Below are positions 1 to 10,530 of a DNA stretch of 64,000 bases, piece by piece. The DNA is from Lysobacter sp. M2-1. GTDB lineage: Bacteria; Pseudomonadota; Gammaproteobacteria; Xanthomonadales; Xanthomonadaceae. Below the pieces are notes generated by a model. The model searched no databases. It was not told the origin of the DNA and was given only the letters and a program-made list of their open reading frames with translations. Positions within the stretch are counted from its first letter, which is position 1; the number at the start of each line of letters is the position of its first letter. The position numbers and the translations under genes are program-made. Where the stretch lies: assembly GCF_022662495.1 (NCBI RefSeq), contig NZ_JAKPBU010000001.1, positions 1,736,001 through 1,800,000 of the forward strand, given 5' to 3'.

Positions 1-518
1 TCGCGCGCCAGGTCGTGCAGGGTGCGCACGATGCGGTCGGTGACGTCGAGGAAGGCCAGGCGCCCGGCCTTGCGGCTGGTGTCGAGCAGGCGGCGCGAGA
101 GCTGGGTGCCGATCGCATAGAGCAGCTTGGGCGCGTCCGCGGCCAGCGGGCCGTCGAAGAGCTGGTACACGCGCTCGTAGCTGATCTCGGCCAGCTCGCA
201 GGGCACGCGGGTGCGCAGGATCACCTCGCGCGCCTCGGATTCGATGAACAGGCCCATCTCACCCACGAACTGGCCGCCGCCGAAATAGCCCAGGATCAGT
301 TCGCGATCGTTGTCCTCTTCGGTGAGGATCGCGACTGAGCCGCTGATCACGTAATAGAGCGTGCCGGCCGGATCGCCCGGACGGAACACATCGGTACGGC
401 CCGGATAGCGCCGGCGATGGCACTGTGCGAGGAAACGCTCGATCGTGGCTGCATCGGGTGCCAGCGGGCTCGTGGGGCGCCTGCTGCCGATCAGGAGGTT
501 CAGGGGGGATGGATTCAT
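1..518 (-). CDS. clp: CRP-family global regulator Clp, 3' part outside the window
   Basis: This is the first 172 codons of a Crp/Fnr-family transcription factor, read from ATG 516-518 and running off the left edge. The visible protein holds the N-terminal cyclic-nucleotide-binding barrel (segments such as [18 protein letters not shown] and [14 protein letters not shown]) and the start of the long dimerisation helix ([19 protein letters not shown]); the helix-turn-helix lies outside. It reads as the Xanthomonas Clp protein, which is known in that genus to bind c-di-GMP and control virulence, exopolysaccharide and extracellular enzymes. It is divergent from speD, the usual neighbour in xanthomonads. 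The first 20 residues differ from those I recall for Xanthomonas Clp, which suits another genus of the family. Confidence 0.93.
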
Positions 519-3326: not shown

Positions 3327-3401
3327 AGCCCCGTCGCCAAGCGGTAAGGCACCTGACTCTGACTCAGGCATTCGGTGGTTCGAATCCATCCGGGGCTGCC
3401 A
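3327..3401 (+). tRNA. tRNA-Gln (anticodon CTG)
   Basis: A complete 75-base cloverleaf is visible. The acceptor strands AGCCCCG and CGGGGCT pair over seven bases, the anticodon stem is CCTGA/TCAGG with loop CTCTGAC (anticodon CTG, reading CAG), and the T arm has TTCGAAT. Discriminator G and an encoded CCA end follow. The D arm GCCAAGCGGTAAGGC is the same as in E. coli tRNA-Gln as I recall it. Confidence 0.97.
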
Positions 3402-7311: not shown

Positions 7312-8256
7312 ATGAATCGAAGCTTCGCACAAATCCGCTGGCTGCTGAGCACGGGCGTCTTGGTTCTGGGGCTGGCCGGGTGTGCCAGCCTGCCGCCGCC
7401 GACGGGTGAACTGTCGGCCGCGCAGCAGGCGCTCAACCGCGCCGAGGGGGCGGATGCGAGCCAGCACGCGCCCGATACCCTGAACCAGGCGAGCTCGGCC
7501 CTGGCCCGCGCGCAGGCCGCCATGTCGGCCGGCAACGAAGAAGACGCGCGCACGCTGGCGCTCGCCGCGGCGGCCGACGGCGACCTTGCCTATGCCGAAA
7601 GTCGCGCGCTGGCGACCGAGCAGGAATACCGCCAGCGCCGCCAGGAAGTCGCCGGGCTGCGCCAGCGGCTCCAGGTCGACGATGGGCAACTGCCACCGGC
7701 GCTGCCCGACATCGGCCCGGGTAATACCGCGGTCGGCGGCGAGGCACTGCGCCTGCAGCAACTCGACGCCGACGCCAGCCTCAATGGTTACGCCGCCTAC
7801 GAGCGCCTGCAGGCGCGACAGGCGATGGCTGCGCTGCTGGAGGCGAGCCGGCGCGAGCGCCCGGACGCGCAGTACCTGGCCAGTCGCCGGGTGGCGATCG
7901 CGGAATTGGCCGCGCGCACCGAGGCGATGCGGCGTGAGCTCGACCGCCTGGAGCGCGACCGCAGCGATCTGCTGGTCGAAGCCAGTCGCCAGGAGGCCGA
8001 GCGCGCCCGCCAGGAGGCCGAGCGCCTGCGGGTGGAGGCCCAGATCCAGGCCGAGGAGGCCCAGCGCCTGCGTGCCGAGGCCGCGGCTGCCGCGCTCGCC
8101 CGCCAGGAGGCCGAGGACCTGGTCATCGACGTGGGCGGTGCGGAGGCCGAGCGGCTCAAGGCGGCGCGCGCAAGGGAAGCCGAGCTGGCTCGCCAGGAGG
8201 CCGAATTGCTGTCCGAAGGGCAGGACGACGAGGCTGCCGACGACCCTCGCCGGTAA
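7312..8256 (+). CDS. DUF4398-type coiled-coil lipoprotein
   Basis: The 314-residue protein starts with a lipoprotein signal ending in the lipobox LAGC (Cys near residue 24). A DUF4398-like helical domain follows (PTGELSAAQQALNRAEGA and DTLNQASSALARAQAAM). A long, strongly charged coiled coil then covers roughly residues 200-300, rich in the repeat RQEAERLR. Related lipoproteins often carry or sit next to an OmpA-type peptidoglycan-binding domain; none is present here. It is probably outer-membrane anchored with the coiled coil in the periplasm; the function is unknown. Confidence 0.75.
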   Translation: MNRSFAQIRWLLSTGVLVLGLAGCASLPPPTGELSAAQQALNRAEGADASQHAPDTLNQASSALARAQAAMSAGNEEDARTLALAAAADGDLAYAESRALATEQEYRQRRQEVAGLRQRLQVDDGQLPPALPDIGPGNTAVGGEALRLQQLDADASLNGYAAYERLQARQAMAALLEASRRERPDAQYLASRRVAIAELAARTEAMRRELDRLERDRSDLLVEASRQEAERARQEAERLRVEAQIQAEEAQRLRAEAAAAALARQEAEDLVIDVGGAEAERLKAARAREAELARQEAELLSEGQDDEAADDPRR

Positions 8257-8385
8257 ACTGAATGCGGCTCCGGTCGCGTGACGAGTTTTCACCGCTAAAT
8301 CAATAACTTGCGAAACAGTCTGCGCAGTCCGTGCGCCGCGTCGTGGCCCGAATGCGACGCAAATCATGGACTTGCACGGCGTGCC

Positions 8386-8414
8386 TTGCGACGTCCACGG
8401 AGCAGGAGTAGGGT
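8386..8414 (+). promoter_or_regulatory. possible promoter of a structured RNA
   Basis: TTGCGA (8386-8391) and TAGGGT (8409-8414) are 17 bases apart, predicting a start near 8421, exactly where the first stable hairpin begins. The -10 hexamer is weak, so this is a suggestion. Confidence 0.35.
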
Positions 8415-8420
8415 CGAATA

Positions 8421-8627
8421 CCCAAGCGGCTGCGGTTTCCATCCGCCGCTTGGCCAGCGAGCCAGGCCCCAGATGACCCGATCCCCAGATCCACAGGAAC
8501 TCGCCGCCGCAAGCACGTCTTGCGGAGGCGGCCTCCGGGGTCGCATCCGCACCGCTCGCAGCATCTCCCCCGCTCCAGTGCTCACCCGCAACGCCCCGTG
8601 CCCTCGCAGGCCGGGGCGTTTGCATTT
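8421..8627 (+). ncRNA. candidate structured small RNA or leader upstream of the DUF465 gene
   Basis: The 390-base gap between the lipoprotein and the DUF465 gene has no plausible gene but contains ordered RNA-like structure. CCAAGCGGC (8422-8430) pairs perfectly with GCCGCTTGG (8445-8453). A single-stranded-looking stretch with several C runs (8464-8490) follows. Then comes a long hairpin, GCCGCCGCAAG-CACGT-CTTGC(GGA)GGCGGC (8503-8532). Last is a terminator-like hairpin, AACGCCCC/GGGGCGTT (8590-8597 and 8613-8620), with TGCATTT behind it. This is the layout of a trans-acting sRNA of about 205 bases. A 5' leader of the downstream gene is the alternative. It does not match 6S, SRP, RNase P or tmRNA by eye. 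Confidence 0.4.
8590..8627 (+). terminator. terminator-like hairpin before the DUF465 gene
   Basis: AACGCCCC and GGGGCGTT form a perfect eight-base-pair stem around a 15-base loop, followed by TGCATTT. It ends only 20 bases before the DUF465 start codon and could end a small RNA or attenuate read-through into that gene. Confidence 0.5.
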
Positions 8628-8646
8628 GACCTAGAAGGAGGCACCC

Positions 8647-8865
8647 ATGTTTGAAGGGCAACCGCAGGCGGAACTCGACGAGATCATGAAGGCCAACAGC
8701 GAGTTCCGGCAGCTGTATTACCGCCACAAGGAACTGGACAAGCAGGTGCTCGACGCCGAGCTCGGAGTGCTGCCGATCGACGACAGCACCCTGTCCCAGA
8801 TGAAGCGCGAGAAGCTGGCCGCCAAGGACCGCCTGACGCGAATGTACGAATCCATCCAGCACTGA
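8647..8865 (+). CDS. DUF465 (YdcH-family) small protein
   Basis: This 72-residue, highly charged, all-helical protein fits the DUF465 family: a helical hairpin with YYRHKELDKQVLDAE followed by KREKLAAKDRL. A strong ribosome-binding site (AAGGAGGC) precedes the ATG. The role of the family is not established. It follows the terminator-like hairpin at 8590-8627 closely, so its expression may depend on read-through. Confidence 0.85.
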   Translation: MFEGQPQAELDEIMKANSEFRQLYYRHKELDKQVLDAELGVLPIDDSTLSQMKREKLAAKDRLTRMYESIQH

Positions 8866-8955
8866 TCCTTCGTTCCACGGCGCGGGCGGAGGCGGCCATC
8901 CTCGTCGGCCGTCGCCGCCCGTGCGCATTGTTTGAGTGCGGGGCACGCAAGCAAC

Positions 8956-9036
8956 CCAAGGTTTGCGGAGCAAACCTCGGGCCCCATGCCCTTGCTTCCA
9001 AACCCCGCCCCTTCGGGGCGCCCCCTTGCTAAGGGG
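8956..9036. repeat. intergenic dispersed repeat, copy B
   Basis: This copy has the same element order as 1488-1576: palindrome AGGTTTGC-GGA-GCAAACCT (8959-8977), CGGGCCCC (8978-8985), a second palindrome (CGCCCC-TTC-GGGGCG) and CGCCCCCTTGCTAAGGGG. The palindrome arms differ in sequence between copies but keep pairing, which suggests selection for structure. It lies between the DUF465 gene and cbs. Confidence 0.6.
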
Positions 9037-9159
9037 CTTTCCTCCAGAAAGTATCTCGCGCGCGGCGCCTGGCGCCCGGTATGCGCAGGCGCCCGGCGCG
9101 GTTGCTGCCACATGGCCGATAATCTGCGGCTCCATCCGCAGCCGGGCGGCCAGCATTCC

Positions 9160-10530
9160 ATGCCTATCCATCAGTCCGTCCTCGAACTCGTCGGCAACAC
9201 GCCCATCGTGCAGGCCCAGCGTCTCGACACCGGCCCGTGCACGCTGTACCTCAAGCTGGAAAGCCAGAACCCCGGCGGTTCGATCAAGGACCGGATCGGG
9301 CTGTCGATGATCGAAGCGGCCGAGCAGCGCGGCGACATCCGGCCGGGTGACACGCTGGTCGAGGGCACCGCCGGCAACACCGGCATCGGCCTGGCCCTGG
9401 TCGCGCAGCAGAAGGGCTACAAGCTGGTGCTAGTGGTTCCCGACAAGATGAGCCGCGAGAAGATCTTCAACCTCAAGGCGATGGGCGCCCAGGTCGTGCT
9501 GACCCGGTCGGACGTGGCCAAGGGTCATCCGGACTATTACCAGGACCTGGCCGAACGGATCGCGCGCGAGACTCCGGGCGCGTACTTCATCAACCAGTTC
9601 GGCAACCCCGACAACCCGGCCGCGCACGAATTCGTGACCGGGCCGGAGATCCTGCGGCAGATGGACGGGGACCTGGACGCGATCGTCTTCGGCTGCGGCA
9701 GCTCGGGCACGATGACCGGCCTGTCGCGCTGCTTCGCGCAGCATTCGCCCGAAACCGAACTGATCCTGGCCGATCCGGTGGGCTCGATCCTGGCCGAGTA
9801 CATCAACGAGGGCACGCTCAGCGAAAAATCCGCCAGCTGGATGGTCGAGGGCATCGGCGAGGATTTCCTGCCCACCATCTCCGACTTCAGCCGGGTCAAG
9901 CGGGCCTATGCCATTACCGACAAGGAGAGCTTCCTCACCGCGCGCGAGCTGCTGGAGAAGGAGGGCATCCTCGGCGGCTCGTCCACAGGTACCCTGCTGG
10001 CCGCCGCGCTGAAGTACTGCCGCGCGCAGACCGAACCCAAACGGGTGCTGGTGTTCGTCTGCGACACCGGCAACAAGTACCTGTCGAAGATGTACAACGA
10101 CTACTGGATGCTGGACAACGGCTTTCTCGAGCGCGAGCCGAGCGGTGACCTGCGCGACCTCATCCTGCGTCCGTACTCGCAGCGCGACACTGTGGTGGTG
10201 GGTCCCGGCGACCTGTTGGTCACTGCCTACCAGCGGATGAAACTGTACGAGATCTCGCAGCTGCCGGTGATGGACGGCGAGCACCTGGTCGGGATCGTCG
10301 ACGAATCCGACGTGCTGCTGCATGTCTACGGCGACGAGGCCAGGTTCAAGGATCCGGTCTCGACCGCCATGGTCAGCAAGATCGACTCGCTGGACGTCAA
10401 ATCCCCGATCGAGTCTCTGCTGCCCCTGTTCGACCGCGGCCACGTGGCCATCGTCAAGGACGGCGAGAAGTTCCTGGGCCTGATCACCCGGATCGACCTG
10501 CTCAACTACCTGCGCAGGCGGGTGCAGTAG
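9160..10530 (+). CDS. cbs: cystathionine beta-synthase (PLP domain plus CBS pair)
   Basis: The 456-residue protein has an N-terminal fold-type II PLP domain. The substrate loop and PLP lysine are in NPGGSIKDRIG, the Ser/Thr loop in EGTAGNTGIG, and the PLP-phosphate loop in GCGSSGT. A C-terminal pair of CBS domains starts near residue 340 (SQRDTVVVGPGDLL to LITRIDLLNYL). It condenses serine and homocysteine to cystathionine, the first step of reverse transsulfuration; cysteine synthase activity is the main alternative. ATG 9160 begins MPIHQSVLELVGNTPIV, the family start; an upstream in-frame ATG at 9112 is less likely. The next gene encodes the partner enzyme, 55 bases downstream. Confidence 0.92.
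   Translation: MPIHQSVLELVGNTPIVQAQRLDTGPCTLYLKLESQNPGGSIKDRIGLSMIEAAEQRGDIRPGDTLVEGTAGNTGIGLALVAQQKGYKLVLVVPDKMSREKIFNLKAMGAQVVLTRSDVAKGHPDYYQDLAERIARETPGAYFINQFGNPDNPAAHEFVTGPEILRQMDGDLDAIVFGCGSSGTMTGLSRCFAQHSPETELILADPVGSILAEYINEGTLSEKSASWMVEGIGEDFLPTISDFSRVKRAYAITDKESFLTARELLEKEGILGGSSTGTLLAAALKYCRAQTEPKRVLVFVCDTGNKYLSKMYNDYWMLDNGFLEREPSGDLRDLILRPYSQRDTVVVGPGDLLVTAYQRMKLYEISQLPVMDGEHLVGIVDESDVLLHVYGDEARFKDPVSTAMVSKIDSLDVKSPIESLLPLFDRGHVAIVKDGEKFLGLITRIDLLNYLRRRVQ

Follow-up and report, generated by a model that had tools for sequence, protein, structure and literature searches.

The intergenic gap at 8257-8646 of the window (the whole 64,000-nucleotide stretch of Lysobacter sp. M2-1 DNA analysed here) is read, with a probability of about 0.62, as the promoter and 5' leader of a DUF465 mRNA, in which the leader would act as a translation-coupled transcription attenuator. 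Comparison with relatives demonstrates the conservation of a candidate promoter, a 5' stem, the openness of an upstream reading frame (uORF), a predicted terminator, and their linkage in cis to DUF465; from that arrangement we infer transcription, termination at the hairpin, translation of the uORF, and the sign of the effect that translation would have. An earlier note on this gap had favored a small RNA with a C-rich linker and had named an attenuated leader of the DUF465 gene as its second option, and it is the second option that fits better.

The gap lies between a DUF4398 gene (7312-8256) and the DUF465 gene (8647-8865), and the order of the locus is DUF4398, leader, DUF465, and a gene encoding PALP and CBS domains. 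DUF465 is a small protein of unknown function. The features of the leader and its gene are as follows.

8386..8414, + strand: candidate promoter, TTGCGA (8386-8391), a 17-base spacer, and TAGGGT (8409-8414), recognized by conservation
8422..8453, + strand: stem-loop at the predicted 5' end of the transcript, with a perfect 9-bp stem (8422-8430/8445-8453) and covariation
8473..8634, + strand: uORF of 53 codons plus TAG, starting in the supposed C-rich linker and crossing the terminator
8588..8627, + strand: putative intrinsic terminator/attenuator, made up of a GC hairpin (8588-8623) and the T-rich tail after it, from a terminator scan and folding
8635..8641, + strand: DUF465 ribosome-binding site AAGGAGG, read in the sequence
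8647..8865, + strand: DUF465 gene, 72 aa (Pfam PF04325, E 1.7e-14), which the leader would serve

In the proposed mechanism, transcription would begin at about 8421 and the 5' stem would cap the transcript, probably shielding its 5' end. Ribosomes starting at 8473 would translate the uORF, the sequence of its peptide presumably being immaterial, and continue into the intrinsic terminator at 8588-8627. A ribosome close behind RNA polymerase would cover the terminator arm and allow read-through into DUF465; slow initiation or elongation on the uORF would let the hairpin form and release a roughly 205-nt RNA. The layout, with an ORF reaching a predicted intrinsic terminator ahead of a gene, can be read directly, and the ORF is presumably translated. 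Excerpts from published work describe ribosomes acting on terminators in this way elsewhere: in the pyr leader, coupling of transcription and translation over the leader peptide blocks the terminator hairpin (PMC5021804), and ribosomes silence intrinsic terminators near or inside ORFs (PMC4824070).

Several other self-complementary regions surround these features. The upstream part of the gap holds a further GC-rich self-complementary region (8300-8385), absent from the relatives' DNA matches, where the DUF4398 transcript may end. Directly past the DUF465 stop is a strong GC-rich inverted repeat (8880-8924), probably the DUF465 terminator, which would leave DUF465 monocistronic. Two neighboring GC hairpins at 9005-9045, CCCCGCCCCTTCGGGGCG and then CCCCTTGCTAAGGGG with TTTCC, lie upstream of the PALP/CBS-domain gene and could be either a terminator or another leader.

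Promoter and leader RNA

A DNA search gave matches in 10 of 60 genomes, the window's own included, with promoter/stem and terminator matched separately. DUF465 then served as the anchor, through 80 named loci (the best 80 of 274) and the 192 of 198 searched genomes of Xanthomonadaceae (Lysobacteraceae) in which it was found; within those best 80 of 274, the closest DUF465 relatives come from Thermomonas, Luteimonas, Lysobacter, and Pseudoxanthomonas. The word G[AC]GTAGG[GTC]T occurs in 85 and a CGCC...GGGGC hairpin in 90 of 98 non-redundant upstream regions. Addition of more loci gave 185 units with both the -10 word and the hairpin, and 73 representatives remain at <80% identity. Units were selected by their -10 and terminator patterns, so the selection itself accounts for part of the conservation at these letters; it took no account of the -35, the spacer length, the 5' stem, the uORF start codon, or whether the frame was open. 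Alignment A1 contains 67 of the 73 representatives, with L063 (short, 135 nt), L067, L137, L152, L153, and L158 omitted by hand.

The promoter TTGCGA-17-TAGGGT proposed in the earlier note is present, and TTG-17-TAGGxT, with TTG exactly 17 bases from the -10, occurs in all 73 family representatives, which were picked by -10 and terminator only. Although a strict sigma-70 scan (9/12 matches needed) returned no promoter at 8386-8414, the promoter is supported because this spacing is kept throughout. The window's own genome contains one exact match to the promoter pattern and 21 with one mismatch, versus 46 for a reversed-pattern control; with counts below the control, the motif does not behave, at that stringency, as a promoter word used commonly across the genome. 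Among 27 loci of other families, 23 also have TTGC-17-TANNNT roughly 200-270 bases upstream of DUF465, in a scan whose scoring favors TTG. A further TTG-16..18-TANNNT before DUF465 was found in none of the 73 representatives (1.4 expected), and a single predicted promoter stands ahead of both the leader and DUF465.

Transcription would start at about 8420-8422. The distance from the -10 to the terminator is 179-223 nt in 72 of the 73 representatives and 135 nt in the remaining one, and the distance from the terminator to the DUF465 start varies from 18 to 161 across the same set. A short RNA of about 205 nt, running from promoter to terminator, is a well-supported prediction.

The perfect 9-bp hairpin that had been seen at the predicted start is indeed there (8422-8453), and it begins 8 bases past the -10, at the expected start. 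Comparison with related genomes, suggested earlier as a check, showed both this stem and the terminator to be conserved. Compensatory double changes occur in all six consensus pairs of the 5' stem (67 aligned sequences), with 60 cells changed on both sides, compared with 21.1 after shuffling and 8-20 for slid controls. The terminator-like hairpin (8588-8623) was also correctly recognized, and a T-rich tail comes after it; its conserved stem (8591-8598/8612-8619, ACGCCCCG...CGGGGCGT) is kept by sequence and is paired in 99.6% of cells in the 67 sequences, both partly forced by the selection pattern.

Folding of 8418-8625 gave a z of -3.5 versus shuffles, with -2.8 for the 5' stem alone, -4.0 for the terminator hairpin, and only -1.9 for the middle hairpin. 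RNAalifold on the 67 representatives recovered the 5' stem and the terminator as the sole helices and placed no consensus pairs between them. The long bulged hairpin described earlier exists in the window (about 8496-8540) but is not conserved, and the absence of a conserved middle structure argues against a function for it and against a riboswitch. A riboswitch was rejected as a candidate, as the 67 sequences contain no conserved aptamer structure between the two helices. The leader also yielded no antiterminator structure that would compete with the terminator, and neither of the two conserved stems carries a conserved C-rich loop.

Upstream reading frame

The C-rich open stretch is present at about 8464-8500, but as the start of a uORF that the earlier note missed and not as a linker. 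The uORF begins with ATG at 8473 and stops at 8632-8634, directly before the AAGGAGG of DUF465. An RTG start is found at this position in 73/73 representatives, using a rule that is blind to downstream sequence and includes an SD-like score. An in-frame stop before the terminator arm occurs in one of the 73, versus 22.8 expected from dinucleotide shuffles, while the other two frames have stops in 25 and 24 of 73 versus 23.6 and 23.5 expected. With one representative per genus, stops were seen in 0/30 (9.5 expected), and codons 3-22 contain stops in 0/73 (13.9 expected). A plain 'first ATG' start rule weakens the result (2/27 with a stop vs 8.6 expected), and clustering the units at <65% identity leaves only five, a number at which the stop test has no power. 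The 73 uORFs end before the arm (3), within the terminator (7), after it (35), or run into DUF465 (28); the count of three takes any stop beginning before the arm, whereas the count of one considers complete codons only, beginning at codon 3. The frame specificity does not extend beyond the family, where stops occur in 5, 8, and 6 of 25 in frames 0, 1, and 2 versus 10.2 expected; a separate uORF test on loci of other families gave a Fisher p of 0.09.

Over the first 60 bases of the frame the third-position excess is mild (579, 759, 873), and the codon-position signal, weak through codon 20, is gone downstream; the codon-substitution test was ambiguous, and the stop tests decided. The peptide has no Pfam or NCBIfam match. 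The distance from the uORF start to the terminator falls in all three phases (31, 52, and 65 of 148 unique, with some starts misassigned). The open frame, the use of all phases, and the lack of a peptide family together argue for conservation of an open frame as far as the terminator, without conservation of the peptide; the conserved property would be that of reaching the terminator.

The window's uORF has a weak ribosome-binding site, as do those of many relatives, and SD-like 4-mers before the uORF are not enriched (32/73 vs 33.5 expected). The first codons are C-rich and G-poor, with 14 C and 5 G in codons 2-11 of the window's uORF. C exceeds G in these codons in 58 of 73 representatives, and the mean C-G across the 73 is 4.41 compared to 1.06 for 33 long ORFs from the window. 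In the last 30 bases before the terminator the 73 representatives average C 0.43, G 0.23, T 0.18, and A 0.16.

Linkage to DUF465 and spread

The unit is found in 41 of 43 mapped genera, of which pattern matching accounts for 30 and the covariance model for a further 11; the two genera without it are g65 and g69. Loci of g65 (L174-L176) have the same GGAGTAGGGTC promoter 72-75 bases before DUF465 and lack the leader RNA and terminator, perhaps a natural loss of the attenuator. The covariance model of the leader was searched over 121 genomes of Xanthomonadales, and all 18 family matches at E <1e-10 adjoin DUF465, which favors a leader acting in cis over an autonomous sX13-like sRNA. Weaker matches adjoining DUF465 comprise one in family f3 (8.7e-9) and two in family f12, and none of nine other weak matches with checked loci adjoins it. 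The window's genome carries one copy of the leader, its next match (E 0.007) being away from DUF465.

Family f12 (L294, L296, L300, L301, L304) retains the promoter, 5' stem, and ATG with no clear intrinsic terminator, which indicates that attenuation is not universal; the uORF reaches the DUF465 start in four of these five loci, L300 being the exception. Some of the f3 loci do show a terminator. At the class level, DUF465 loci matched in 10/56 genomes, with similarity too weak to judge the leader.

The Rfam search that had been recommended found no family for the leader. Rfam 15 at gathering thresholds gave no match in the leader region of the window, a relaxed search of 8200-9200 gave only chance-level values (E 1.6-4.9), and 20 relatives searched at E up to 0.5 yielded three weak matches below gathering with no family in common. 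The sole gathering-level Rfam match in the window is a tRNA gene at 3327-3398 (RF00005).

Alternative readings and known systems

The alternative that survives best, though we consider it unlikely, is a leader with two roles, attenuating DUF465 and releasing a 205-nt RNA that also acts in trans. The conserved promoter-to-terminator length, the conservation of both end structures, and the surplus of C over G in codons 2-11 (58/73) are consistent with it, and UpsM of Rhodobacter sphaeroides offers a precedent, a long 5' UTR (268 nt) whose intrinsic terminator releases an sRNA, as given in the abstract (PMC5089854). UpsM differs in belonging to the dcw cluster and in its proposed trans action, and the abstract mentions no uORF (PMC5089854). 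Weighing against a second role are the middle of the RNA, which has no conserved structure, the stop-less uORF that the released RNA would carry in 63/73 representatives, a poor form for a stable regulator, and the CCCC runs before the terminator, which are only mildly enriched (46/73 vs 35.8 expected).

It is improbable that the 53-codon peptide is itself the product, with DUF465 as a second cistron. A frame open to the terminator in 72/73 and the mild third-position excess at the start of the frame (first 60 bases) would suit a small-protein gene, but the codon-position signal is gone after codon 20, the frame enters the terminator in any of the three phases, and neither Pfam nor NCBIfam offers a match for the peptide. 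Equally doubtful is a Rho-linked leader of the type described for DUF1127 in Sinorhizobium meliloti, in which accessible C-rich first codons promote termination. Excerpts of that report describe a small DUF gene with a long leader (279 nt) and a uORF whose C-rich first codons promote termination, presumably via Rho, and whose RNA matters while its peptide sequence does not (PMC12218461). The C-rich, G-poor first codons of the present uORF agree with this, but the DUF465 leader has a conserved intrinsic terminator, while the same excerpts describe a DUF1127 leader lacking one and with termination presumed to be Rho-dependent, in a non-xanthomonad and before an unrelated gene (PMC12218461). By analogy with the DUF1127 leader, an opposite sign of translation's effect, with termination promoted, is possible.

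Least likely of all is the autonomous C-rich trans-acting sRNA of sX13 type: it would account for the leader's own promoter, terminator, and C-rich stretches, but every strong family match adjoins DUF465, DUF465 has no other promoter-like site (0/73), g65 keeps the promoter at 72-75 bases from DUF465 without the RNA or terminator, the 'linker' starts a constrained open frame, conserved C-rich loops are absent, and no Rfam sRNA matches in the window and none consistently in the 20 relatives. sX13 of Xanthomonas shares with the DUF465 leader the bacterial family and C-rich stretches. As described in excerpts of PMC3771888, sX13 differs in always sitting downstream of polA, in having three stems with C-rich loops, and in acting in trans. 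Homology to sX13 was rejected, as the DUF465 leader is not downstream of polA and has two conserved stems, not three with C-rich loops (PMC3771888).

The translation-coupled attenuator that we prefer resembles the pyrBI attenuator (pyrL) of E. coli in layout. pyrL has about 44 codons and runs through its terminator, and the pyrBI leader has a U-rich, UTP-sensitive pause tract before the terminator. The DUF465 leader lacks such a U-rich tract, being C-rich there instead, and is thus pyrBI-like in layout without being filed as a pyrBI leader; it also precedes another gene in another lineage and has a covarying 5' stem. Common to both would be a leader ORF translated into an intrinsic terminator, where a close ribosome blocks the hairpin, as excerpts of PMC5021804 describe for pyrBI.

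Nothing on a DUF465 leader was found in searches of an open-access library, and a Xanthomonas homologue could stand in Schmidtke 2012, the main sRNA list for Xanthomonas. Translation-coupled attenuators are known as a class, and we count the DUF465 leader as a further example of it. A broader, tentative idea is that the leader is an order-wide translation sensor of Xanthomonadales that wires DUF465 to ribosome traffic on a peptide-variable uORF; the C-rich first codons and pre-terminator tracts might then tune polymerase pausing as a read-out of CTP or ribosome availability, and the released non-stop RNA would need ribosome rescue.

A conserved attenuator would be a first handle on the timing of DUF465 production and predicts its control by translation status. 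A uORF without a conserved peptide would be recognizable by the frame-specific absence of stops up to the terminator. A short terminated RNA at the DUF465 locus in xanthomonad RNA-seq may be a by-product of this leader and not a trans-acting sRNA.
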